Source: Actinomycetota bacterium (GTDB taxonomy: Bacteria; Actinomycetota; Acidimicrobiia; Acidimicrobiales; RAAP-2). Taken from it: DNA of 52,465 nt. The DNA lies in assembly GCA_021324355.1 (NCBI GenBank), contig JAJPJD010000019.1, forward strand, positions 1 through 52,465, written 5' to 3'. Of this stretch, positions 787 to 14,345 are shown in pieces (position 1 is the first letter of the stretch; each line of letters opens with the position of its first letter). A model generated the notes under the pieces. The model worked only from the letters and a program-made list of their open reading frames with translations. It was not told the origin of the DNA and ran no database searches. The position numbers and the translations under genes were made by a program.

Positions 787-1608
787 CTACGCCCGCCGAT
801 AGGCGCGCACCGCCAGCGGGACGAACACCAGCGCGATGCCGGCCAGCCAGAGCGCGCTCTGCCAGGCGTGCAGCTGGAGCGGGCCACCCAGGGCGAGCGC
901 CCGCAGCTCGTCGATGACAATGGTGACCGGCTGGTTCTTGGCGAACGCCTGGAGCCAGCCGGGCATCGAGGTCACCGGCACGAAGGCCGAGCTCACGAAG
1001 GTGAGCGGGAACAGCCAGACCAGGCCGAAGGAGCCCACCGCCTCCTCATCGCGGATCCGCAGCCCGACGAAGCCGCTCACCGTGCAGATGACCGCCCCGA
1101 AGGCCACCGCCAGCACGACCAGGAGCAACGCCGGGACGATCCCGTTGTGGAACCGGAAGCCGACCGCGTACCCCACGCCGAGCAGGAGCACCACGGTGAC
1201 CACCAGGCGAGCGGTGTCGGCGGCCAGCCGCCCGAGCAGCACCGCCGAGCGGGCGATGGGCATGGCCCGGAGCCGATCGATCATCCCCAGCTGGACCTGC
1301 CGGGCCAGCGCGATGGCGGTCCCGAACGAGGCGAACGCGCTGGTCTGGGCGATGATCCCGGGCATGAGGAAGTCCACGTAGCCCCCCGGCACCCTGACCG
1401 GGATGGCCCCACCGAACACGTAGCGGAACAACAGGACGAACATCACCGGCTGCACGAAGGTGAAGAAGATGAGCGACGGGTTCCTGAGCCACACCAGCAG
1501 CTCCCGCCGGGTGAGGGTGGCCACGTCGGCCAGGGCCGAGCGCGCCGCGGTGGCGACCGAGGGCGCCCTGACCACCGGCGGCAGCGGATCGACCTCGGCT
1601 CGCACCAC
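787..1608 (-). CDS. ABC-2 type transporter permease (DrrB-like)
   Basis: Membrane subunit of an ABC exporter, 273 residues, the usual size for DrrB-like permeases. After a short cytoplasmic leader it contains LTRRELLVWLRNPSLIFFTF, typical of the ABC-2 fold entry, then about six hydrophobic segments. The region PVTSMPGWLQAFAKNQPVT is the characteristic pre-C-terminal loop of daunorubicin-type exporters. The GTG at 1608 lies four bases after the stop of the ATPase gene, so the two genes form an operon. The substrate is unknown: drug, lipid or glycolipid export are all possible. The nearby hopanoid operon makes lipid export tempting, but nothing in the sequence shows this. Confidence 0.9.
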   Translation of the reverse strand: MVRAEVDPLPPVVRAPSVATAARSALADVATLTRRELLVWLRNPSLIFFTFVQPVMFVLLFRYVFGGAIPVRVPGGYVDFLMPGIIAQTSAFASFGTAIALARQVQLGMIDRLRAMPIARSAVLLGRLAADTARLVVTVVLLLGVGYAVGFRFHNGIVPALLLVVLAVAFGAVICTVSGFVGLRIRDEEAVGSFGLVWLFPLTFVSSAFVPVTSMPGWLQAFAKNQPVTIVIDELRALALGGPLQLHAWQSALWLAGIALVFVPLAVRAYRRA

Positions 1609-3170: not shown

Positions 3171-4988
3171 TCAGCCGGCCCGGTCGACGGCCAGCCGGCC
3201 GCGACGGCCCACGAGCTGCCGGCGGACCCGGCGGGCGATCCCGGGACCGTCCAGCTCCAGGTGGGCCAGGATGTCGGCCGGACGGCCGTGGGGCACGTAG
3301 GCCACCGGCACCCCGGCACACAGGACCCGATCGGGCCGCTGGCCGTCCCGCCCCAACAACGCGCTCGCAACGAGGGAGCCCACGCCCCCCGCCTCGACTC
3401 CGTCCTCGGCCACCAGCACCAGGCGATGCCCGGCTGCGTCGTCGAGCATCCGCGGATCGAGCGGCTGGACCGCTCGGGGGTCCCACACCGTCGCCGCCAC
3501 CCCATCGGCAGCCAACAGGCCGGCCGCCTCCTCGCAGGCCGCCAGCAGCTTGCCCACGCCGATGAGGCAGACCTCCCGGCCGGAGGACACCAGGCGCGCG
3601 GCCAGGCCCTGGCCGGGCGGGCCAGCCCACCTGGCCTCGGTCTTCGGCCATCGCAGGGCGACCGGGCCAGCCGACTCGGTGCAGGCCCACCGCAGCATGG
3701 TGCAGAGCTCCTCGGCTGAGGACGGCGCGAGCACGGTCATGCCCGGCACCTTGGTGAGCAGCGCAAGATCGGCCACCCCGTGGTGGCTCGGCCCGTCGTC
3801 GCCGGTGATCCCGGCTCGGTCGAGGCAGAAGACGACCGGGAGCCGGTGGAGGCCGACGTCGTAGTACAGCTGGTCCCAGGCCCGGTTCAAGAAGGTGGAG
3901 TAGATCGCGACCACCGGCCGCAGGCCGGCCATGGCCATTCCGGCCGCCGCGGTGACCGCGTGCTGCTCGGCGATGCCGACGTCGAAACAGCGGGTTGGGT
4001 GGCGCTCCCGGAAGGCGCTCAGGCCGGTCGGCCCTTCCATGGCCGCGGTCAGCGCCACCAGCTCGGGCACCTGGTCGGCGAGCCCCACGATGGCCCGGGA
4101 GAACACCTCGGTGTAGGTGGGCCCGTTGCGCCGTGCCGCGAGGCCGGTCTCGGGGTCGAAAGGACCGACGTCGTGGAGGTGCTTGGTCTGGTCGGCCTCG
4201 GCGAAGTGGTAGCCGCGGCCCTTGGCGGTGTGCACGTGCAGGACGACCGGGCCGCCGCGTGCGGCTGCGGCCAGGAGCCCCGCCTCGAGCGCCTCGATGT
4301 CGTGGCCGTCGACCGGGCCCAGGTACTCGAACCCCAGGCACTCGAAGAACCCGGCCGGTGCCCTGGGATCGGCCACCCGCCCGGCGGTGGAGAGGGCCGA
4401 GACCGTCGGCGCGTACGAGCGCCCGTTGTCGTTCACCACCACCACCACCGGCAGCCGGGCCGCGCCGATGTTGTTCAGCGCCTCGTAGGCCAGGCCGCCG
4501 GTCAGCGCGCCGTCGCCCACCACCGCCACCACCCGGCCGGCACCGTGCCCGAGGGATTCGGCCACCGCCAGGCCGTAGGCATACGACAACGCGGTCGAGG
4601 CGTGGCTGTTCTCCACCAGGTCGTGGGGGGACTCCGCCCGGCTCGGGTACCCCGACAGCCCGCCGGCCTGACGGAGGCGGGCAAAGCCGGCCGCCCGGCC
4701 AGTGACCAGCTTGTGCACGTAGGCCTGGTGACCGGTGTCCCACACCAGGCGGTCCTGGGGCGAGCGGAACACCCGGTGCAAGGCCAAGGTGAGCTCGACC
4801 ACCCCCAGGTTGGACCCCAGATGGCCGCCGGTGCGAGCCACCGATCGCACCAGGAACTCCCGGATCTCGGCCGCCAGGGCCTCGAGCTGGGGGCGGTCCA
4901 GCCGGCGAAGTCGCTCGGGGGTGAGCCCGTCCAGGGCGGCCGGTACCGCCGGCGCGCCGGTGGCGGGAGGCGGCACCAGGGTGGTCAA
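3171..4988 (-). CDS. dxs: 1-deoxy-D-xylulose-5-phosphate synthase
   Basis: First enzyme of the MEP isoprenoid pathway: condenses pyruvate and glyceraldehyde 3-phosphate using thiamine diphosphate. The protein has ARTGGHLGSNLGVVELTLAL (51-70), DTGHQAYVHK (84-93), the thiamine-binding GDG (158-160) with NN at 172-173, and the conserved DRAGITGDDGPSHHG in the second domain. With 605 residues it is slightly shorter than the usual 620-640. The start is uncertain. TTG at 4988 overlaps the hpnH stop, matching the tight coupling of the operon; GTG at 4976 is the alternative. It is the last gene of the hopanoid operon, where it would raise precursor supply. It may be a second copy beside a housekeeping dxs elsewhere. 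Confidence 0.93.
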   Translation of the reverse strand: MTTLVPPPATGAPAVPAALDGLTPERLRRLDRPQLEALAAEIREFLVRSVARTGGHLGSNLGVVELTLALHRVFRSPQDRLVWDTGHQAYVHKLVTGRAAGFARLRQAGGLSGYPSRAESPHDLVENSHASTALSYAYGLAVAESLGHGAGRVVAVVGDGALTGGLAYEALNNIGAARLPVVVVVNDNGRSYAPTVSALSTAGRVADPRAPAGFFECLGFEYLGPVDGHDIEALEAGLLAAAARGGPVVLHVHTAKGRGYHFAEADQTKHLHDVGPFDPETGLAARRNGPTYTEVFSRAIVGLADQVPELVALTAAMEGPTGLSAFRERHPTRCFDVGIAEQHAVTAAAGMAMAGLRPVVAIYSTFLNRAWDQLYYDVGLHRLPVVFCLDRAGITGDDGPSHHGVADLALLTKVPGMTVLAPSSAEELCTMLRWACTESAGPVALRWPKTEARWAGPPGQGLAARLVSSGREVCLIGVGKLLAACEEAAGLLAADGVAATVWDPRAVQPLDPRMLDDAAGHRLVLVAEDGVEAGGVGSLVASALLGRDGQRPDRVLCAGVPVAYVPHGRPADILAHLELDGPGIARRVRRQLVGRRGRLAVDRAG

Positions 4989-5992
4989 TGGGTGCTCACC
5001 AGGGCCCGCAGGGACTGGCGGAGCGAGCTCATCGAGGCGATGACCGCCGACGGCTCGTAGCCGCAGTGGGCCATGCAGTTGTCGCAGCGCGGGTCGCGGC
5101 CCCGGCCGTAGCGGGTCCAGTCGGTGGTCTCGACCAGCTCGCGGTAGGAGCTGGCGTACCCGTCGGCCATGAGGTAGCACGGCCGCTGCCAGCCCAGCAC
5201 CGAGAAGCTGGGGATCCCCCACGCGGTGCAGGCGAAGTCGACCTTGCCCTCCAAGAAGTCGAGGAACAGCGGCGAGTGGTTGAGACGCCAGCGCCGGCGC
5301 CGACCCTCTGCGAACGCCTCGGCGAACAGGCGGCGGGTCTGCTCCACCCCCATGAAGTGGTCCTGGTCCGGGGCCTTCTCGTAGGCGTAGGCGGGCGAGA
5401 TCATCATCGCGTCCACCCCGAGGTCGTCATTGAGGAAGTCGAGCAGGTCGCGGACGGTCTTGGGCGAGTCGGTGTTGAAGAACGTCGAGTTGGTGGTGAC
5501 CCGAAAGCCGCGAGCCTTGGCTTCTCGCACCGCGGCCACCACCTCGTCGAACACCCCGGCCCGGTCCACCGCGGCGTCGTGGCGCTCGCCCAGGCCGTCG
5601 ACGTGGACCACCCAGGAGAAGAAGCGCGATGGGGTGAAGCGGTCGAGGCGGCGCCGCAGCAGCACCGCGTTGGTGCACAGGTAGACGTAGACCTTGCGTT
5701 CCACCAGGGCGGCGACCATCTCGTCGATCTCAGGGTGCAGCAACGGCTCGCCGCCAGCGATCGAGACCATCGGGGTCCCGCTCTCTTCCACCGCGCCGAC
5801 CACGTCTTGGACGCTGAGGCGGCGGCGGAGGATCTCGGTCGGGTGCTGGATCTTCCCGCAGCCTGGGCAGGAGAGGTTGCAGGCGAACAGCGGCTCGATC
5901 TCGACGATGAAGGGGTAATAGGGCCGCTTGCGGAGCTTGTTGGCCAACAGGTGGGCCCCGATCCGAAGGTTCTGTCGCAAGGGAATAGGCAT
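4985..5992 (-). CDS. hpnH: Adenosyl-hopene transferase HpnH (radical SAM)
   Basis: Radical SAM enzyme that joins a 5'-deoxyadenosyl group to hopene (diploptene), the first step of the extended C35 hopanoid side chain. It is 335 residues, the normal length. The iron-sulfur motif is CNLSCPGC with Cys 38, 42 and 45, preceded by FIVEIEPLFA as in known HpnH proteins. Further family marks are SIAGGEPLLHPEI and, near the end, a Cys-rich region with CDNCMAHCGYEP. ATG 5992 shares one base with the stop of the upstream fusion gene (TGATG), and its own stop overlaps dxs, so translation is coupled on both sides. Confidence 0.93.
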   Translation of the reverse strand: MPIPLRQNLRIGAHLLANKLRKRPYYPFIVEIEPLFACNLSCPGCGKIQHPTEILRRRLSVQDVVGAVEESGTPMVSIAGGEPLLHPEIDEMVAALVERKVYVYLCTNAVLLRRRLDRFTPSRFFSWVVHVDGLGERHDAAVDRAGVFDEVVAAVREAKARGFRVTTNSTFFNTDSPKTVRDLLDFLNDDLGVDAMMISPAYAYEKAPDQDHFMGVEQTRRLFAEAFAEGRRRRWRLNHSPLFLDFLEGKVDFACTAWGIPSFSVLGWQRPCYLMADGYASSYRELVETTDWTRYGRGRDPRCDNCMAHCGYEPSAVIASMSSLRQSLRALVSTH

Positions 5993-7461
5993 CAGCGCAC
6001 CTGCAGGGGGAGGGAGAAGCGCACAGACTCCTCGATGGTTCGGTGTTCGTGGACCTCGGTCGTCCCGAGGCCCGACAGCTGCTCGACCAGGTCCACGACG
6101 ACGGACTCGGGGGCCGAAGCCCCGGCGGTGACCCCGATCGTGGACACCCCGTCCAGCCACGACAAATCCAGGTGGCCGGCGTCCTCGATCAGCTCGGCAC
6201 GAGCTCCCTCCCGACGGGCCACCTCGACCAAACGGGCCGAGTTGGAGGAGTTCGCCGAGCCGACGACCAGCACCAGCTGGCAGCGTGCCGCCACCGCCCG
6301 CACCGCGTCCTGGCGGTTCTGGCTGGCGTAGCAGATGTCGTCGGCACTGGGCCCGACCAGGTCGCTGAAGCGGTCCCGCAGGGCGGACAGCACTTCGGCC
6401 GTCTCGTCGACCGCCAGCGTGGTCTGGGTCAGATACGCGACCGGGGTGTCGGGGCCATAGGGCAGACGCACCACGTCCTCGGGCCGCTCGACCAGGTCGA
6501 TCGCCTCGGGCACCTCGCCCATCGTCCCCACCACCTCCTCGTGGTCGGCGTGGCCGACCAGCACGATCCGCCGGCCCTGGGCCGCGAAGCGCCGAGCCTC
6601 GTGGTGGACCTTGGCCACCAGCGGACAGGTGGCGTCGATGACCGACAGATCGCCTCGCGCCGCCGCCTGGGCCCGGACCGCCGGCGCCACCCCGTGGGCG
6701 GCCAGCACCACGGTGGCCCCGGTGGGCACCTCGTCGAGCTCCTGGACGAAGACCGCCCCCCGGCGCTCGAGACCGGCGACCACGTGGGCGTTGTGCACGA
6801 TCTGGCGGCGGACGTAGACCGGGGCGCCGAAGCGCTCCAGGGCTCGCTCGACGATCTCGATCGCCCGCTCGACCCCGGCGCAGAACGAGCGGGGCGCGGC
6901 CAGCTCGACCCGGCGGGGGCCGAGGGCTCGTGCCCACGCCTCGAGCGCCGGGCGGACCCGACGCAGCGCGTGGAGGGCCCGCAGCCCGCCGCCCACCGGG
7001 CCGCTGTCGAGCGAGTCGGCCACCGCCCGGACCACGACCAACGGGACGTCGCGACCGAGCGCGTCGGCCAGGAATCCCGACTCCATGTCGGCCGCCACCG
7101 CGTCGCCGAGACCGAGCTCGCGCAAGCGGGCCGGCCGCAGGAGGCGAGGCACCGAGACCACCGGCCCGGCCCGGACCGACAGACCGGACCGAGCCAGCTG
7201 GGCCGCGACCAGGCGGGCCCCGGGCACCGGCCGGGCCCGGCCGTCCAGGGTGCGCAGCTCGGTCGCGACCACCAGATCCCCTGGCGCCATCCCGGGCAAA
7301 AGCCCGGCGGCCACGCCCACCATCGCGGCACCCACCGGCCCCGGCGCCGGCCGCAGCACCGCGGTGGCCGCCCGGCGGGGACCCATGCCGACCACCTGGA
7401 CCGGTCCACCGACCGCCAGAGCTTCGACGCGCAGCGCGCTCAGCACCCGGAGCTCAGCCAC
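5992..7461 (-). CDS. ispH: HpnG-like phosphorylase fused to IspH (HMBPP reductase)
   Basis: One 489-residue reading frame carries two enzymes. Residues 1 to about 182 resemble the purine nucleoside phosphorylase superfamily: VVGMGPRRAAT near the start, GLLPGMAPGDLVVATEL, and DMESG (125-129), which corresponds to the family's 'MES' motif. HpnG cleaves adenine from adenosylhopane. Residues about 183-489 are a complete IspH, which makes IPP and DMAPP from HMBPP. It has all three cluster cysteines in context: SFCAGVERAI (Cys 194), IDATCPLVAKVH and ICYASQNRQ, plus GSANSSNS and GVTAGASAPE near the end. No stop or frameshift separates the domains. GTG 7461 overlaps the shc stop by 8 bases. The HpnG assignment rests on context and the DMES motif and is less sure than IspH. 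Confidence 0.88.
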   Translation of the reverse strand: MAELRVLSALRVEALAVGGPVQVVGMGPRRAATAVLRPAPGPVGAAMVGVAAGLLPGMAPGDLVVATELRTLDGRARPVPGARLVAAQLARSGLSVRAGPVVSVPRLLRPARLRELGLGDAVAADMESGFLADALGRDVPLVVVRAVADSLDSGPVGGGLRALHALRRVRPALEAWARALGPRRVELAAPRSFCAGVERAIEIVERALERFGAPVYVRRQIVHNAHVVAGLERRGAVFVQELDEVPTGATVVLAAHGVAPAVRAQAAARGDLSVIDATCPLVAKVHHEARRFAAQGRRIVLVGHADHEEVVGTMGEVPEAIDLVERPEDVVRLPYGPDTPVAYLTQTTLAVDETAEVLSALRDRFSDLVGPSADDICYASQNRQDAVRAVAARCQLVLVVGSANSSNSARLVEVARREGARAELIEDAGHLDLSWLDGVSTIGVTAGASAPESVVVDLVEQLSGLGTTEVHEHRTIEESVRFSLPLQVR

Positions 7462-9310
7462 GGCCGTCCTCGCTCGCCAGGTACCGGCCGAGGGCCGACA
7501 GCGGGAACACCAACCGGTAGAGGTGGTAGTTGATGTAGAACGCGCCGGGAAATCCGGTCCCGGTGTACCACGGCTCGTCCCAGGTTCCGTCGTCGCGCTG
7601 GGTGCGGGCCAGCCAGGCCACCCCCCGGCCGGCGGCCTCCCGCTCGCCCGCCGCGAGCAGCCCCTGGACCGCCCAGCCGGTCTGCGACGCGGTGGACGGG
7701 CCACGACCGATCCACGACGGGTCGTCGTAGGAGCGCAGATCCTCGCCCCACCCGCCGTCCTCGTTCTGGTGGGACACCAGCCACGCCACGCCCCGGGCGA
7801 CTGGCGGCTCGGAGGGCTCCACCCCCGCCGCCACCAGCGCGACCAGGGCCGCCGCAGTCCCGTAGACATGGTTCGCACCCCAGCGCCCGAACCACGACCC
7901 GTCGGCCTCCTGAGCCCGAAGCAGCCAGGCCACCCCCCGGTTGAGCGCCTCGGAGTGCCGCCCGGTGGTCGCCAACATCTCCACCACGTGCGCGGTCACG
8001 TCGGCGCTCGGCGGGTCGATGAGCTCGCCGAAGTCACAGAACGGGTGCTCCCGGCACAGGGTCCGGGTGTTGTCGACGTCGAAGGCGGCCCAGCCGCCGT
8101 CCCGGCACTGCATGCCCAGGACCCAGGCCACCGCCCGTTGCACCGCCGGGTGCAGCGCGGCCTCGGTGCGCGCCAGCGCCAGGACCACCTCGGCGGTGTC
8201 GTCGATGTCCGGGTACCAGTCGTTCTCGAACTCAAACGCCCAGCCCCCCGGGGCCAGCGTGGGCCGGCGGACGCTCCAGTCGCCCCGCCGGGTCACCTCC
8301 TCTGAGAGGATCCACTCGGCCGCCCGCACGAGGACCGGGTCGTCGGGCTTCACCCCGGCGTCGGCCAGCGCGATCATCGCCAGCACGGTGTCCCACACCG
8401 GCGACTGGCAGGCCTCCAGGCGTCGGCCCCGCTCGTCGGAGATGGTAAAGCCGTCGAGGCCCTCGAGGCCGACCCGCATGACCGGGTGACCCAGGTCGTA
8501 GCCCCGCAGGTGCAGGGCGATGAGGGAGTACACCCACGGCGGTTGGATCCCGCCCCACGAGCCGTCGTTCTCCTGGTGGGCCACGACCCAGCGCTCGGCC
8601 CGGGCCAGCGCGACCCTGCGCAGGAACCGCAGTGGGCGGCGCTCGTAGCGGTGGAGCACCCGGTCGAGCAGGGTCAACCGGCCTGCCCAGGTGCGCAGCG
8701 AGCCGGCCGGGGGGTGGAACCGGCCGGTGCGCAGCTCGTCGATCGTGACCCCGATCGGCCGAACGGGCCGGTAGTGGGAGACGATCGACAGTGCGACCAC
8801 GGTCTGGCGGGCCCAGCACGCGAAGTCGTAGATGTTGAGCGGGAACCACGGCGGGAGCAGGACGATCTCAGGTGGCAGGACCGGGAGGTCCTCCCAGCGC
8901 CACAAGCCGAACAGGGCGAGCCAGATCCTGGTGAACACCCGGGTCGCCTCCACGCCGCCGGCCTCGCGCACGTAGGCCGCGGCCCGGGTCATGTGCGCCG
9001 CCTCGGGTGGGTCGCCGGCCAGCCGCAGGGCGAGGTAGGCCTCGACCGTGGTCGACAGCTCGGGTGGGCCGCCGTAGAAGTTGGCCCAGGTCCCGTCGTC
9101 GCGCTGATTGGCCCGGATCCACCGGGCACTGGCCTCGGTCTGCTCCGGGGTGCGGATGCCCAGGAACTGGCGGAGGAGCAGGTCCTCGGCGTCCATGCTC
9201 ACGTTGGTCTCGAGCTCGCCCTTCCAGTAGCCGCGCTCGTGCTGGAGGGCGACCAACGCGTCCCGGGCCGCCGCCATCGCCTCCTCGACGCTTCGTCCGG
9301 CCGGGCTCAT
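7454..9310 (-). CDS. shc: Squalene-hopene cyclase
   Basis: Cyclises squalene to hop-22(29)-ene and diplopterol at the membrane surface. At 618 residues it is slightly short for the family (about 630-680). The catalytic acid motif is DIDDTA at about residues 368-373, matching the DxDDTA of known cyclases. Several QW repeats are visible, for example HQENDGSWGG, CRDGGWAAFD, EADGSWFGRW and NEDGGWGED. The segment QSPVWDTVLAMIAL is also diagnostic. ATG 9310 overlaps the stop of the prenyl synthase by four bases (ATGA), and its own stop overlaps the HpnG-IspH gene. Position between prenyl synthase and hpnG/hpnH is the usual hopanoid arrangement; the gene is also called hpnF. Confidence 0.96.
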   Translation of the reverse strand: MSPAGRSVEEAMAAARDALVALQHERGYWKGELETNVSMDAEDLLLRQFLGIRTPEQTEASARWIRANQRDDGTWANFYGGPPELSTTVEAYLALRLAGDPPEAAHMTRAAAYVREAGGVEATRVFTRIWLALFGLWRWEDLPVLPPEIVLLPPWFPLNIYDFACWARQTVVALSIVSHYRPVRPIGVTIDELRTGRFHPPAGSLRTWAGRLTLLDRVLHRYERRPLRFLRRVALARAERWVVAHQENDGSWGGIQPPWVYSLIALHLRGYDLGHPVMRVGLEGLDGFTISDERGRRLEACQSPVWDTVLAMIALADAGVKPDDPVLVRAAEWILSEEVTRRGDWSVRRPTLAPGGWAFEFENDWYPDIDDTAEVVLALARTEAALHPAVQRAVAWVLGMQCRDGGWAAFDVDNTRTLCREHPFCDFGELIDPPSADVTAHVVEMLATTGRHSEALNRGVAWLLRAQEADGSWFGRWGANHVYGTAAALVALVAAGVEPSEPPVARGVAWLVSHQNEDGGWGEDLRSYDDPSWIGRGPSTASQTGWAVQGLLAAGEREAAGRGVAWLARTQRDDGTWDEPWYTGTGFPGAFYINYHLYRLVFPLSALGRYLASEDGRG

Positions 9311-10272
9311 CGATCTCGCTCCGTCACGAACCGGGCAATCGCAGCCAGCTCCTCTCGGGGCCCGGCCTGGAGCGGCACCGACCCCAGCGCCGCCATCGCC
9401 TCCTCGTAGGCGCGATCGGCAATGGCCATCGCCTCCTCGCGGGCCCCGGTGGCCTCGATCCGTGCGGTGGCTGCCCCGAGGTCCTCGGGGGCAATGGGGT
9501 CGGCCAGGAGTGCCTCGAGCTCGGGGCCACCGCGGGCCAGCGCGATCGCCACCGGCAGGCTCTTTTTGTGGGCGAGCAGGTCGCTGCCGACCGGCTTGCC
9601 GGTCCTGGCGGTCTCGCCCCAGATGCCGAGCACGTCGTCGACGGCCTGGAAGGCCAGCCCCAGCCGCTGGCCGAAGTGCTCGAGGGCCTTCACCACGTCG
9701 TCGGCCGCGCCGGCCAGCACCGCGCCGATGGCGCCCGCGCACCCCAACAGCGCCCCGGTCTTGCCCTCGGCCATCCGGAGGCACTCCTCCACCCCCACCT
9801 GGCGGCGGCCCTCGAACGCCATGTCCTGGGCCTGGCCGCCGATCATGAGCCCGGTGGCCTCGGTGAGCACCTGGGCCGCGTGCAGCTTGGTCGGGGAGTC
9901 GGCCTCCAGCAGGACCGAGAGCGCCAGGTTGGCCAGCGCGTCGCCGGCCACGATGGCCCAGGGGACCCCGAAGACCGCCCAGACGCTGGGGCGGTGCCGC
10001 CGCTCCTCGTCACCGTCGATCACGTCGTCGTGGACCAGCGAGTAGTTGTGGACCAGCTCGACCGCCACCGCACCGGGAACCCCGTCTGTCTCGGTCCCGC
10101 CGGCGGCCGCCGCGCCGATCACCGCCAGCGCGCCCCGCAGCCCCTTGCCCCCGCCGGCCAGGTGGTGCTCCACCGGCCCCCGCAGCTCGGGGGCCAGCCG
10201 TCCCACCGCGTCGCGCAGCGCCGGTCCGACCAGCTCGCTGGCGCGGGCGATGGCCGCCTCGGCCCCGCTCAC
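9307..10272 (-). CDS. Polyprenyl diphosphate synthase (probably farnesyl diphosphate synthase)
   Basis: Trans-prenyltransferase of 321 residues that condenses IPP with allylic diphosphates. The first aspartate-rich motif is DDVID (82-86) in LVHDDVIDGDEERRHRPSVW, and the second is DDVLG (212-216) followed by GKPVGSDLLAHKKSLP, the standard conserved block. In this operon the expected product is farnesyl diphosphate for HpnD, but product chain length cannot be fixed from the motifs alone. GTG 10272 overlaps the hpnE stop (GTGA) and the gene's stop overlaps shc (ATGA). Confidence 0.93.
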   Translation of the reverse strand: MSGAEAAIARASELVGPALRDAVGRLAPELRGPVEHHLAGGGKGLRGALAVIGAAAAGGTETDGVPGAVAVELVHNYSLVHDDVIDGDEERRHRPSVWAVFGVPWAIVAGDALANLALSVLLEADSPTKLHAAQVLTEATGLMIGGQAQDMAFEGRRQVGVEECLRMAEGKTGALLGCAGAIGAVLAGAADDVVKALEHFGQRLGLAFQAVDDVLGIWGETARTGKPVGSDLLAHKKSLPVAIALARGGPELEALLADPIAPEDLGAATARIEATGAREEAMAIADRAYEEAMAALGSVPLQAGPREELAAIARFVTERDR

Positions 10273-11636
10273 CCGCCCACCGCCGCCAGCTCGGCCACCC
10301 GGCCGTCCGCCAACCGGCGCAAGGCGGCGGCCGCGGCTGCGGCGCCGCTGCGGACCGCGCCCTCCATGGTCGCCGGCCACCCGGTCGCGCACCAGGCTCC
10401 AGCGACGAACACCCGGTCGAGGGCGGTGAGCGGGCCGGGCCGCAGGGCGGCGGTCCCAGGCACCCCTCGGAAGGTGGCCGCCCGCTCCCGGGTGACCACT
10501 GCGTCGAGGAGTCGGGCCGATCGCACCGCCGGGAGGAGCGCGGCCAGGGCCTCGGTGTAGGTGGCGATCAACGCCTCGGGGCGGCGGCCGACATCGGCAT
10601 CGGCCCCCGACAGCGACAGGGACAGGCACTGCTCGTCCGTCGGCACCTCGCCGCCAAAGTGCGCCGCCTCGGTCCGGTCGAAGACGAACTGCACCGGCGA
10701 GTCCAGCGCCGCGAACAGTGGCAGCTCGGTGACCGGCCGATCGAAGACCAGGTGGACGTTCACGATGGGCGAGGTGCCGAGCCGCTCGACCGGCCCCAGG
10801 GCCTCCTCGCCCAGGAGTCCCTGGGCGGCCTCGGTGCCAGTGGCGACCACCACCGCGTCGGCCTCGATCCGCCCGCTGTCCGTGGTGAGCGCCCAGCGCC
10901 CCCCGGCCGCCGCCTCGAGCCGCTGCACCGCCGAGGAAAGCTGGACCTCGACGCCGGCGTCGGCCAGGGCCGCCGCCGCGTGCTCGCCGTGGAGCACTTC
11001 GAGCGGGACCGCCGACCAGCCGATATCGCCGGCATCGGCATGCTCCAGCAGCCCGGTCCGAAACACCATCGCGCCCAGGGCCAGCGACGCCTCCTCGGCG
11101 GACACGTTGAGGGTGGCCAACGCGATCAGGTTCCACAGCCGCTCGACTGCCTCGGGGCGCTGACCCCGGGCGGACAGCCACGCACCGAGGGTCACCCGGT
11201 CCAGGGCCGGGTCGTCGAGGTCGAGGCGGCGCAGGGCCAGGGCGGCCCGGCCGAGCCGCACCCGATCGAGCGGCGACAGGTGCCGGTAGCGGGCCAGCGA
11301 TGGCGCCAGGTGGAGCGGCGCCGGCAGCCCGGACCGCCCGATGTCGGCCCGCCGGCCCCCCGGCGCCAGCACCGGCAGCCAGAGCCGCTCCTGGAGCCGC
11401 ACCAGGGAGGAGGCGCCGATCCGCTCGAGGAGCGCCCGGTACTCGGTGCAGCACCGCAGGAAGACGTGCTGGCCGTTGTCGAACCACCGCCCTCGCCGGC
11501 GGAACGACCAGGTGAGCCCGCCCAGTCGACCCCGGCGCTCGAGGAGCGTCACCGCGGCCCCGCCGTCGGCGGCCGCGACCGCGGCCGCCACCCCGGCCAG
11601 CCCCCCGCCCACCACCACCACCGAGGACCGGGTCAC
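10269..11636 (-). CDS. hpnE: Hydroxysqualene dehydroxylase HpnE
   Basis: FAD-dependent amine-oxidase-fold enzyme that reduces hydroxysqualene to squalene, last step of the HpnCDE route. The dinucleotide-binding motif VVVVGGGLAGVAAAVAAADG stands at the N-terminus, followed by LLERRGRLGGLTWSF and FDNGQHVFLRCCTEY, both characteristic of HpnE. The C-terminus has VFVAGAWCATGWPATMEGAV, the FAD-binding end motif. GTG 11636 was chosen because it overlaps the hpnD stop as GTGA, the pattern of this operon; GTG 11645 would add three residues. Length is 455 residues. Confidence 0.93.
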   Translation of the reverse strand: MTRSSVVVVGGGLAGVAAAVAAADGGAAVTLLERRGRLGGLTWSFRRRGRWFDNGQHVFLRCCTEYRALLERIGASSLVRLQERLWLPVLAPGGRRADIGRSGLPAPLHLAPSLARYRHLSPLDRVRLGRAALALRRLDLDDPALDRVTLGAWLSARGQRPEAVERLWNLIALATLNVSAEEASLALGAMVFRTGLLEHADAGDIGWSAVPLEVLHGEHAAAALADAGVEVQLSSAVQRLEAAAGGRWALTTDSGRIEADAVVVATGTEAAQGLLGEEALGPVERLGTSPIVNVHLVFDRPVTELPLFAALDSPVQFVFDRTEAAHFGGEVPTDEQCLSLSLSGADADVGRRPEALIATYTEALAALLPAVRSARLLDAVVTRERAATFRGVPGTAALRPGPLTALDRVFVAGAWCATGWPATMEGAVRSGAAAAAAALRRLADGRVAELAAVGG

Positions 11637-12469
11637 CGGACCCACCCCCCGAGGGCCCGGCCCGCCACCCCCAGTTTCTCCCCGGTGGACAAGGACAGCC
11701 GGCCCCGGAGCACGACGGCCGGCTCAGCCTCGATGCGCTGGAGCAGCCGTCGGTAGATGCCAGCCATCGCGCCCACACAGGCCCGAGAGCGCCAGTCGAG
11801 CAGCTCGAGCAGGCGAAGCCCCCGGGCGAACCACTCCCGGGCTCGGGTGCACTCGAACGCGACCAGCTCGGCCACCGCCTCGGCCGGGCCGGTGAGGTCG
11901 GGGTCGCACCCGTGCTCGGCGGCGTCGTCCGCCGGCAGGTAGACCCGCCCCATGGCCCGGTCCTCCAGGACGTCCCGCAGGATGTTGGTGAGCTGCAACG
12001 CCACCCCCAGGTCGTCGGCGAGCGCCGCCGCGCCCGGGCGGCCCTGCGCGCCGAACACGGCCAGCGAGAGCCGACCGACCGTGCCGGCGACCCGGCGGCA
12101 GTAGCCGACCAGGTCGTCGAAGGTCTGGTAGCGGGTGCCGCAGACGTCCATCTCGCAGCCGTCGATCAGCTCGCCGAAGCACTCGAGCGGCAGCTGGTAG
12201 CGCTCGGCGGCGTCGGCCAGCGCGACCAGGACCGGGTCCTCCGTCGGCACCAGGTGCTCGATGTCCTTGCGGACCTGGCGGAGGCCGGCGAGCTTGTCCA
12301 CGTCGCTGCCGGTGCCATCCCCGATGTCGTCGATCCGACGGGCCAGGGCGTAGACCGCCGAGAGCGCCCGGCGCTCGGGCGGCCGGAGCAGGCGGATGCC
12401 GTAGGAGAAGTTCTTCGCTTCCCGCCGAGTGATCTCCTCGCACGCTTGGTACGCCGCCTCGACCTTCAC
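11633..12469 (-). CDS. hpnD: Presqualene diphosphate synthase HpnD
   Basis: Member of the squalene/phytoene synthase family, 278 residues, joining two farnesyl diphosphates into presqualene diphosphate. The first Asp motif is RRIDDIGD (44-51) and the second NILRDVLED (162-170), followed by GRVYLPADD as in HpnD. The N-terminal CEEITRREAKNFSYGIRLL is also typical. GTG 12469 overlaps the hpnC stop by four bases and the stop overlaps hpnE. Phytoene synthase is the alternative reading from sequence alone, but the directly adjacent hpnC and hpnE and the shc gene make HpnD by far the better call. Confidence 0.93.
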   Translation of the reverse strand: MKVEAAYQACEEITRREAKNFSYGIRLLRPPERRALSAVYALARRIDDIGDGTGSDVDKLAGLRQVRKDIEHLVPTEDPVLVALADAAERYQLPLECFGELIDGCEMDVCGTRYQTFDDLVGYCRRVAGTVGRLSLAVFGAQGRPGAAALADDLGVALQLTNILRDVLEDRAMGRVYLPADDAAEHGCDPDLTGPAEAVAELVAFECTRAREWFARGLRLLELLDWRSRACVGAMAGIYRRLLQRIEAEPAVVLRGRLSLSTGEKLGVAGRALGGWVR

Positions 12470-13341
12470 GAGGACACCTGGCCTCGGGCCCGAACGGTCT
12501 CGAGCAGCCGACGAGCCAGATCCGCTGGCCGCGGCCGGCAGCGGGTCGCAACCACGTCGCAGCCGCAGCGCTCGATCGCGTCCAGGGCCGCCGCGCCACC
12601 GGCGCTGAACGCGGCGACCGCCAGCCTGGGCCGCAGCGGGAGGGACCGGGACAATGGGGCTCCCGCGGCCAGCAACGCACGCGCCCGACCGACCTCCTCG
12701 GCGACCACCGCCACCAGGGCGGGGCGCTGGTCCGCCTCGAGCAGGCGCTCGGGGTCGCACCCGTGGGCGGCCACGTCCCTGAGCGGCAGGTAGATCCGCC
12801 CGGCTGCCCAGTCTTCGGCCACGTCCTGGAGGTGCTCGACCAGCTGGAGGCCGATGCAGACCTGGTCGGCCCGGGCAATCCGCTCCGCCGTGTCCAGCCC
12901 CAGGACCGCCAGCACCAGCCGTCCGACCGGGACCGCCGAGAGGTGGCAGTACGCGGTGAGGTCCTCGAAGGTGGCGTAGCGGTGCACCAGTTGGTCCTGG
13001 CGGTTGGCAGCGATCAGGTCCTTGAAGGGCTGCAGCGACAGGCCGAAGGTCCGGATCGTCGGGGTGAGGGCGCAGAACACCGGGTGCTCGGCCCGGCCGA
13101 CGGCCGCCCGCCCCAGCTCGGCCTCGGCCCAGTCGAGCAGGGCGAGCCGGTCGCCCGGGGCTTCGTCCCCCAGGTCGTCGACCAGGCGGCAGAACCCGTA
13201 GAGGGCGAGGAGGTGGGACCGGGTGGCTCGGGGGAGGACCCAGGAGGCGACCGGGAAGTTCTCCGCTTCGGCCTTGGCCATGACCGCGTCGCGCCCCGGA
13301 GGGATCCGGGACGGCCGTTGCCCTGTCGCTGGTGATGCCAC
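12466..13341 (-). CDS. hpnC: Hydroxysqualene synthase HpnC
   Basis: Paralogue of HpnD that converts presqualene diphosphate to hydroxysqualene. It is 291 residues with the family start AENFPVASWVLP (26-37), first Asp motif VDDLGDE (54-60) and second EHLQDVAEDW (169-178) followed by GRIYLPLRDVAAHGCD. It is the first gene of the hopanoid operon. GTG 13341 has GAGGAG about ten bases upstream; a shorter start at ATG 13281 (MAKAEAENFP) is possible and closer to the usual family length. A promoter with TTGACG and TATAAC lies 50-75 bases upstream, flanked by palindromes. Confidence 0.93.
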   Translation of the reverse strand: MASPATGQRPSRIPPGRDAVMAKAEAENFPVASWVLPRATRSHLLALYGFCRLVDDLGDEAPGDRLALLDWAEAELGRAAVGRAEHPVFCALTPTIRTFGLSLQPFKDLIAANRQDQLVHRYATFEDLTAYCHLSAVPVGRLVLAVLGLDTAERIARADQVCIGLQLVEHLQDVAEDWAAGRIYLPLRDVAAHGCDPERLLEADQRPALVAVVAEEVGRARALLAAGAPLSRSLPLRPRLAVAAFSAGGAAALDAIERCGCDVVATRCRPRPADLARRLLETVRARGQVSS

Positions 13342-13451: not shown

Positions 13452-14240
13452 TCAGTACTGGGAGCGGAGGCCGAGCGCCGGACGAACCAGGCCCATGAGC
13501 ACGGCCTCCACCACCCTGCGGGCAGCCGGGACGGCCCGGGTGCCTGGTGGCCGCAGCCTCGGCCCCAGCCTGGTCGTGAGCCCCTGGGCCACCGAGGCGA
13601 CGATCCCCGCCGAGCGCGGCTCGTCGCGCAGCTCCCGGGTTGCCGCCTCGAGCAGGAGCGGAGCCAAGGGCGCGAGCAGCGTCTCGAGCTCGCCACGGGC
13701 CTCTCGTTCGGACAGGGTCCCGCCACGGCGGTCGAGCTCCTGGCCCACCGCGTCGACCGTGGACCGGGCGGCAGCGACGAACACCGCGTCCTTGGAGTCG
13801 AAGTACCGGTAGAAGGTGCCCTTGGCCACCCCGGCGGCGTCGCAGATCTCCCCGACCGAGACCCCGTCGTAGCCGTGCCGGGCGAAGGCATCCCGGGCCA
13901 CCTCCAGGAGGCGGCCAGCCACCGGGTCGGCGGTCGACCCGTCGGCGACCAACGCGGCCCAGCCCTCCTCGGTGAGCCCGTCGAGGGGGTGCTCGAGGAC
14001 AGCCGGCAGGATCCGCCGCACCCGGTCGAGCGGGACCTGGTGGGCTCGGAGCGCCCGGATGGCTCCCAGCGCGGCCACGTGACGCTCGTCGTAGGCGAAC
14101 CGCTTGCCGGAGCGCTGGCGGGGCGGGGGCAGAAGTCCCAGCTTGCGGTAGTGGTGAATGGTCGGCACCGGTACCCCGCTGCGAGCCGCGAGCTCCGAGA
14201 CCCCGAAGCCCCCTCCAGGCTCGTGCACCACCGCCGTCAT
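13452..14240 (-). CDS. MerR-TetR two-headed transcriptional regulator
   Basis: A 262-residue protein with two different DNA-binding domains. Residues 12-80 are a MerR-type winged HTH: VSELAARSGVPVPTIHHYRK, then GLLPPPRQRSGKRFAYDERH and the helix ending LDRVRRILPAV. Residues 111-155 are a TetR HTH: RLLEVARDAFARHGYDGVSV followed by AAGVAKGTFYRYFDSKDAV. The remaining 100 residues are helical and correspond to a TetR ligand domain. ATG 14240 is preceded by AGGGGCC. The gene lies 110 bases upstream of hpnC in the same direction, and palindromes occur in both its own promoter and that of hpnC, so control of hopanoid synthesis and itself is likely. The joined architecture is clear from the sequence; the target is inferred. 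Confidence 0.88.
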   Translation of the reverse strand: MTAVVHEPGGGFGVSELAARSGVPVPTIHHYRKLGLLPPPRQRSGKRFAYDERHVAALGAIRALRAHQVPLDRVRRILPAVLEHPLDGLTEEGWAALVADGSTADPVAGRLLEVARDAFARHGYDGVSVGEICDAAGVAKGTFYRYFDSKDAVFVAAARSTVDAVGQELDRRGGTLSEREARGELETLLAPLAPLLLEAATRELRDEPRSAGIVASVAQGLTTRLGPRLRPPGTRAVPAARRVVEAVLMGLVRPALGLRSQY

Positions 14241-14247
14241 GGCCCCT

Positions 14248-14268
14248 GTTCTACCACCCGAACGTTCG
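14248..14268 (-). promoter_or_regulatory. Promoter and palindromic operator of the MerR-TetR gene
   Basis: On the minus strand TAGAAC (14253-14248) lies 7 bases before the ATG at 14240, so it can serve as a -10 for a very short or leaderless transcript. Just upstream, CGAACGTTCG (14259-14268) is a perfect 10-base palindrome placed between the -10 and the expected -35 position, where a bound repressor would block polymerase. Autoregulation is the simplest reading. Confidence 0.45.
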
Positions 14269-14345
14269 CTTGAGCTGGCCAGGCCGGCGGCGGGCGAGCG
14301 CGTGGGTCCACCCGCACGACCGGGCCGCCCGGCCAAGCTGGCGAG

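Follow-up and report, generated by a model that had tools for sequence, protein, structure and literature searches.

Could one bacterial protein join the enzyme that completes the isoprenoid precursors to an enzyme that acts late in the tailoring of hopanoids? This question is raised by a gene within a stretch of 52,465 nucleotides (positions 1 to 52,465, analysed as a whole and called the window here) of contig JAJPJD010000019.1, from an Actinomycetota bacterium of the order Acidimicrobiales (assembly GCA_021324355.1). An earlier note on this DNA had described a domain resembling the hopanoid protein HpnG, joined in one frame to IspH, the last enzyme of the methylerythritol phosphate (MEP) pathway, and had suggested that its role might be to link precursor supply with side-chain processing. 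The first part of that reading, an HpnG-like domain fused to a complete IspH, is upheld by the present analysis, while the functional coupling of supply and side-chain processing is not. The fusion is a new architecture of known enzymes. At a probability of about 75%, we consider it a bifunctional fusion of two operon neighbours, an IspH for precursor supply and an HpnG-type phosphorylase, selected for co-production. The gene and its parts are as follows.

5992..7461, minus strand: fused HpnG-like and IspH gene, 489 amino acids, GTG start
6922..7461, minus strand: HpnG-like domain, residues 1-180, with conserved E13, D125, E127, S128, R145 and D149
5992..6915, minus strand: IspH domain, residues 183-489, with cluster cysteines C194, C279 and C377
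Substrate residues of the IspH domain (window numbering): H223, H256, H307, E309, Q346, T347, T348, S405, N407 and S449

The fused gene and its two domains

The frame is unbroken over 489 codons, from the GTG at 7461 to the stop codon at 5992-5994. Its coordinates agree with the earlier note, in which the minus strand had been left unstated; the plus strand across 5992-7461 is likewise stop-free. The start of the gene overlaps the stop of shc by 8 bases, and its end overlaps the start of hpnH by 1 base. Contigs of other genomes (genome_contigs) were scanned for relatives, and the best 80 of the 321 found, ranked by similarity to the full fusion, were kept, a sample that demonstrates a real and widespread fusion but is not a frequency estimate. 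The HpnG-like part lies stop-free in the IspH frame in 69 of these 80 loci at E <= 1e-4, and in 75 at E <= 1. The same joint is thus seen across many genomes, which rules out a sequencing error as its source; the loss of a stop codon, named earlier as a possible refutation, fails with the survey that had been proposed alongside it.

Given an alignment of 34 fused rows, AlphaFold2 predicts the whole protein with high confidence (predicted local distance difference test, pLDDT, 91.4; predicted template modelling score, pTM, 0.87). The model has a linker of nearly zero length, since the final helix of the N-domain stops at residue 179 and the first IspH strand begins at 183. Separate translation of IspH from an inner start is probably not the rule and may be possible in a few loci. 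The only in-frame ATG, GTG or TTG up to 30 codons before the IspH core of the window is a GTG at a distance of 27 codons, and it lacks a Shine-Dalgarno-like 4-mer; an inner start codon of some kind occurs in 56 of 75 loci, accompanied by a matching 4-mer in 4 of the 75.

For the C-terminal half, the family-profile search that had been suggested gives a complete match above the cut-offs. Pfam LYTB (PF02401) spans residues 185-462 (E 1.8e-88; 296.7 bits, cut-off 24.5), and the curated cut-off of TIGR00216 (IspH) is passed as well (296.4 bits vs 187.85). The modelled structure confirms the IspH fold, aligning with E. coli IspH over 306-308 residues (Z 38, 51% identity). The three conserved cysteines (C194, C279 and C377) are presumably the iron-sulfur cluster residues of IspH. 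Together with ten residues of the site for 4-hydroxy-3-methylbut-2-enyl diphosphate (HMBPP), they make up 13 tested residues (E. coli C12, C96, C197, H41, H74, H124, E126, Q166, T167, T168, S225, N227 and S269), which are identical in the window and in all 80 loci. The ten substrate-site residues are named for HMBPP binding or catalysis in the accessible text of PMC8837944. The alignment with E. coli IspH confirms the positions, and the same 14 letters recur there in every stand-alone (35), encapsulin (4) and unfused cluster (3) copy; of the 37 fused rows, 36 share them, and the exception (L145) has an alignment gap at the first cysteine. The IspH half is predicted to be a complete and working HMBPP reductase.

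For the N-terminal half, no NCBIfam phosphorylase model matches the window better than TIGR03468 (HpnG), and all 8 non-degenerate actinobacterial domains scanned, two of which are unfused, likewise match HpnG best. PNP_UDP_1 (PF01048) spans residues 24-153 with 22.8 bits by hmmscan, slightly below its cut-off of 25.1; the genome search gives 23.3 bits, or 27.1 with neighbours in frame. The profile matches in the window yield the order hpnC-hpnD-hpnE-polyprenyl synthase-shc-[HpnG-like:IspH]-hpnH-dxs, so that the domain is placed between shc and hpnH, where hpnG had been expected; in clusters of the Thermoleophilia type, hpnC, hpnD and hpnE intervene between shc and the fusion. E13, E127 and D149 of the superfamily of nucleoside phosphorylases and nucleosidases for methylthioadenosine (MTA) and S-adenosylhomocysteine (SAH), the latter abbreviated MTANs, are present in the window, and E127 and D149 align on the MTAN letters mE and RA.sD. 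We take these three positions to be the MTAN catalytic residues, consistent with the Glu12 and Asp197 mutant entries among the structure matches. The six positions E13, D125, E127, S128, R145 and D149 are invariant in 29 of 29 rows picked for a recognisable domain, and are complete in 64 of the 80 loci. The best NCBIfam match, the operon place, the conserved catalytic positions and the modelled fold of an MTA nucleosidase all agree with a domain of the HpnG type, as had been proposed; the alternatives of a mere IspH extension and of an unrelated nucleosidase fail on the present evidence.

Spread and descent of the fusion

The records of the 80 loci carry labels such as Acidimicrobiaceae, Solirubrobacterales, Thermoleophilia, Pseudonocardia, Amycolatopsis, Actinoplanes, Plantactinospora, Jatrophihabitans and Frankiales, among others, and hpnH is found downstream in the fetched stretch in 79 of them (the exception is L109). 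Among 148 relatives of the window's genome, HpnH occurs in 38, and a cluster-type IspH stands directly before hpnH in 32 of the 38; one of the 32 (G135, locus L280) is without the HpnG part and two (G027 and G110) are cut by a contig end. Five others of the 38 (G119, G123, G138, G139 and G144) have an unfused HpnG and no IspH there, and G017 is left unassigned.

In a broad sample of 396 genomes from the phylum, HpnH is present in 33. The N-domain (E <= 1e-25) was found in 16, all within the 33: five are fused, the window included, and the other 11 belong to one genus with genomes of 6-10 Mb, all of them with a free HpnG between shc and hpnH and without IspH. The statement that HpnG and IspH are separate elsewhere thus holds for these 11 genomes and for the five of the window's own order. 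Ten of the remaining 17 HpnH-bearing genomes were examined near hpnH. In four of them (L125-L128) a more distant HpnG-like match lies beside hpnH (69.5-81.6 bits), and IspH went undetected over about 3.5 kb. In G538, a cluster-type IspH stands free and HpnG was not detected; in G280, G190, G368 and G315, neither was detected in the stretch read near hpnH. In G480 (L283), a separate HpnG-like gene (25.8 bits) and then a separate IspH follow hpnH, a layout that could represent the arrangement before fusion.

The operon's MEP genes are duplicates. The window's genome has a second ispH on contig C60 (47% identical to the fused copy) and a second dxs on contig C21, and two or three ispH genes were found in 24 of 24 other genomes searched. 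The hopanoid operon owns the first and the last MEP enzymes, and the fusion exemplifies an operon of this kind that holds both ends of the pathway.

In a tree of 77 IspHs, the 37 fused copies group with the four encapsulin copies (97/97), separately from the housekeeping copies; those of the window's order and of Aciditerrimonas ferrireducens join E. coli, which was flagged as a possible long-branch effect. A second tree adds the unfused L276, L280 and L283 and drops 14 housekeeping IspHs of the window's order and A. ferrireducens. Here, L280 stands beside the fused L112 (100/92), and the deeper branching, as well as the placement of L276 and L283, is unsettled. A clade of fused IspH rows alone is rejected once the three unfused copies are added (p-AU, the P value of the approximately unbiased test, 1.5e-8), because the encapsulin copies and L280 nest inside it. 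One fusion with later losses would fit the remnants described below best, although repeated fusion is conceivable.

What the fusion may do

Under the favoured explanation, the C-terminal half would be a second IspH reducing HMBPP to isopentenyl and dimethylallyl diphosphate, which together with the operon's second dxs would provide precursors dedicated to hopanoid synthesis. The N-terminal half would be an HpnG-type phosphorylase freeing adenine from the adenosylhopane made by HpnH, which is encoded directly downstream; this activity is predicted from the family assignment, and HpnG itself is termed a putative phosphorylase in the accessible text of PMC12583986. The fusion, a single translation unit overlapping shc and hpnH, would lock the co-production of both enzymes. 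Channelling between the halves is implausible because the two reactions lie many steps apart. The role of IspH also appears separable, because IspH is intact where the HpnG part has lost its Glu, is absent or persists as a remnant beside an encapsulin; on this ground the proposed coupling of precursor supply to side-chain processing lacks support.

Several observations weigh against a bifunctional protein. TIGR03468 spans residues 20-154 with 48.4 bits, below the curated cut-off of 187.1, hence the name HpnG-like; in another actinobacterial genus, the unfused HpnG adjacent to shc and hpnH falls below this cut-off too (74-77 bits). E127 is lost in 12 of the 80 loci (L043, L046, L047, L048, L049, L050, L052, L055, L080, L091, L096 and L105). 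A free IspH follows shc directly, with HpnG undetected, in two hopanoid clusters of the same order (L276:5227-6168 and L280:4447-5388). Consequently, bifunctionality is not universal, some genomes being without the HpnG half or its Glu. Furthermore, the fusion is the only IspH found in G009, G053 and G067, which are drafts 89-91% complete. This state may reflect assembly gaps, and two IspH matches occur in 8 of 13 genomes of their genus (g4); if it is real, the reading of the fusion as a second copy would fail there.

The two halves are under different constraint, the IspH residues being fixed and the HpnG-like part looser. Besides the 12 loci above, a single other position is changed in L064, L107 and L112, and L109 is the encapsulin copy among the 80; two of the most degenerate N-domains have no NCBIfam match at E <= 0.01. 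Among the window's relatives with an uncut fusion, which overlap the 80 loci, Glu 127 is kept in 17 of 29. The 12 without it (L018-L029) comprise a single g8 genome and 11 of genus g4, where every uncut fusion has lost Glu 127; several of the 12 show only a change from Glu to Asp. The loss in g4 and g8 looks like ongoing decay within one lineage.

Could such N-domains be retained for another purpose? It is conceivable, though we regard it as unlikely, that the N-terminal half has no catalytic role and acts as a scaffold or docking part, positioning the oxygen-sensitive IspH at a hopanoid or prenyl-synthase assembly. All 12 Glu-less fusions among the 80 loci still carry an in-frame N-part of 153-235 residues, and another HpnG-like gene was found elsewhere in 10 of the 11 genomes examined whose fusion lacks Glu 127, a count that leaves out the genome of L047. 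For nine of these ten genes, TIGR03468 is the best NCBIfam match, with 51-90 bits and all below the cut-off; seven of the nine extend to the last position of that model, although a contig end cuts one of the seven, and two of the nine are of the fusion type. The tenth, in the A. ferrireducens genome (L236), whose own fusion N-domain is degenerate, is a separate HpnG-like gene found by the profile of the fusion N-domain (A2) only, with 66 bits. In the remaining genome, G554, nothing above 17.5 bits was found for a second HpnG. Controls are weak: G170, whose fusion is intact, has a second match of 47 bits, near-intact G560 has one of 60 bits, and TIGR03468 matches, none above the cut-off, occur in 12 of 14 control genomes. 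Co-occurrence of a dead N-domain with another HpnG is therefore a tendency, not a rule. A docking part is also hard to reconcile with the 64 of 80 loci that keep all six catalytic positions and with the two genomes whose cluster IspH has no N-part at all, and passive decay could explain a degenerate but retained N-part as well.

An eroded remnant also persists on IspH in encapsulin operons, which would speak for docking. Four cluster-type IspHs, of Amycolatopsis (L171-L173) and Streptosporangium (L175; L175:6196-11731), adjoin a polyprenyl transferase, which in L175 passes the model of the family 2 encapsulin cargo (484.6 vs 450). Upstream are genes for family 2B shells, two in L175 and one in L171; judged by coordinates, two shell genes lie near the cluster-type IspH in each of the four genomes. 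Of 36 genomes searched, 18 contain family 2B shells above the cut-off, and among the ten shell-bearing genomes also searched for IspH, only these four have an IspH beside the shell. The HpnG remnant upstream of IspH is in frame in L171, L172 and L175, with 23.9-27.5 bits to the middle of the HpnG-like profile, and in a different frame in L173, with 20.9 bits; the top score among 575 scored shuffles (600 made) was 11.2 bits. Hopanoid genes were undetected beside these IspHs within the stretches read. In a tree of polyprenyl synthases (38 of 67 extracted sequences), the four encapsulin copies cluster together among hopanoid-cluster copies, a nesting that depends on the midpoint root, as the tree has no outside root. 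With this root, the tree suggests that a hopanoid-cluster block moved into an encapsulin operon, where IspH and the transferase were retained and shc was lost along with most of HpnG. The recurrence of IspH with a transferase therefore favours precursor supply as the job of IspH. It is likewise doubtful, yet worth stating, that the HpnG half turned into a docking part in some lineages, tethering the oxygen-sensitive IspH to lipid machinery, and that the remnant and the polyprenyl synthase moved into family 2B encapsulin operons, where the remnant could load IspH into the shell. If true, a nanocompartment would hold both the building-block maker, IspH, and the prenyl-chain maker.

Still less likely is an N-terminal half that serves as an ordinary MTA/SAH nucleosidase, recycling the by-products of S-adenosylmethionine-dependent enzymes and having nothing of HpnG. 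Residues 1-180 of the model fold like an MTA nucleosidase (Z about 21 against solved MTAN structures), and the N-domain rows from VIA-align/Foldseek are MTANs, a futalosine hydrolase and a purine nucleoside phosphorylase, none labelled HpnG. There is also a weak match to an MTAN model, NF004079, but its 22.6 bits lie far below the cut-off of 169, and TIGR01704 is absent among the window's matches at E <= 0.1. Moreover, the domain is about 50 residues shorter than MTAN, prefers the HpnG model both in the window and in the eight non-degenerate domains, and occupies the hpnG position.

Finally, the IspH half might reduce the hopanoid side chain, as the missing enzyme from ribosylhopane to bacteriohopanetetrol (not yet established according to the accessible text of PMC12583986) fused to HpnG as the next step, which would suit a reductase joined to the presumed ribosylhopane maker beside hpnH in genomes of which 24 of 24 searched have another IspH, but this is very improbable given unchanged HMBPP-site residues in 80 of 80 loci, IspH relatives beside polyprenyl transferases in encapsulin operons with hopanoid genes undetected in the stretches read, clusters with HpnG and HpnH but no IspH (11 of 11 and five genomes), and an IspH chemistry of reductive dehydroxylation, not aldehyde reduction.

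Known systems and the surrounding operon

No description of an HpnG-IspH fusion was found in the literature searched, by a search reaching few subscription journals. Like IspH/LytB proteins (TIGR00216, PF02401), the fusion has the whole domain, the fold, the three cluster cysteines and all tested substrate residues; unlike them, its IspH sits behind an HpnG-like domain and groups with cluster-type copies apart from housekeeping IspHs of the same genomes. The N-half shares with HpnG (TIGR03468) the best phosphorylase match, the position between shc and hpnH and the catalytic positions, but has 48 bits against a cut-off of 187 and is joined to IspH. IspDF enzymes, called common in the accessible text of PMC13001223, also join non-consecutive steps, although both of their halves belong to the MEP pathway, whereas the window's fusion combines precursor supply with late lipid tailoring. 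The fusion of IspH and ribosomal protein S1 (NCBIfam NF000907), compared by model name and match range only, also holds an IspH domain in a two-domain protein, but there IspH is N-terminal and the partner unrelated. The fused HpnCD of Acidobacteria and some Actinobacteria is likewise a fusion within hopanoid clusters (PMC5462960, in part), but joins two consecutive enzymes of squalene synthesis. In the polyprenyl-transferase operons of family 2B encapsulins, an IspH relative with an HpnG remnant occurs in four genomes, unlike the fusion without detected hopanoid genes beside it. By term counts, neither "IspH" nor "LytB" occurs in the main text of PMC8346489, on these encapsulins.

In Acidobacteria, according to the accessible text of PMC5462960, hpnG clusters with hpnA; the gene grouped with shc and hpnH is given once as "ispH" and once as "ispA". 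For Frankia alni, the portion of PMC10252897 consulted reports by proteomics that FRAAL1433 (named IspH) and FRAAL1432 (squalene-hopene cyclase) are increased 5.12-fold and 4.23-fold, respectively, in propionate-fed over fumarate-fed nitrogen-fixing cells. The NCBIfam models passed (TIGR00216 and NF002190) name the protein simply IspH, so the HpnG half can be overlooked in name-based counts of hopanoid genes; surveys of such genes take the presence of hpnG as a predictor of extended hopanoids. For probing the role of the fusion, a natural series is available: separate genes, fused genes, Glu-less N-domains, lost N-domains and the encapsulin-associated remnant.

The other genes of the operon in the window are as follows.

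3171..4976, minus strand: dxs, one of two genome copies (profile match; the other copy is on contig C21)
4985..5992, minus strand: hpnH, adenosylhopane synthase (TIGR03470, 497.5 bits)
7454..9310, minus strand: shc, squalene-hopene cyclase (TIGR01507, 733.4 bits)
9307..10272, minus strand: polyprenyl diphosphate synthase (the highest-scoring NCBIfam model is that of the family 2 encapsulin cargo transferase, with 342.6 bits against a cut-off of 450)
10269..11645, minus strand: hpnE, hydroxysqualene dehydroxylase (TIGR03467, 399.7 bits)
11633..12475, minus strand: hpnD-like, presqualene diphosphate synthase (TIGR03465, 273.3 bits, slightly below the cut-off of 278.6)
12466..13341, minus strand: hpnC, squalene synthase (TIGR03464, 290.8 bits)

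Downstream of dxs, a membrane protein of an ABC-2 type transporter is encoded at 787-1608 (minus strand). Upstream of hpnC, a regulator at 13452-14336 (minus strand) contains in one frame a MerR-type helix-turn-helix (residues 46-112) and a TetR_N domain (residues 143-189).

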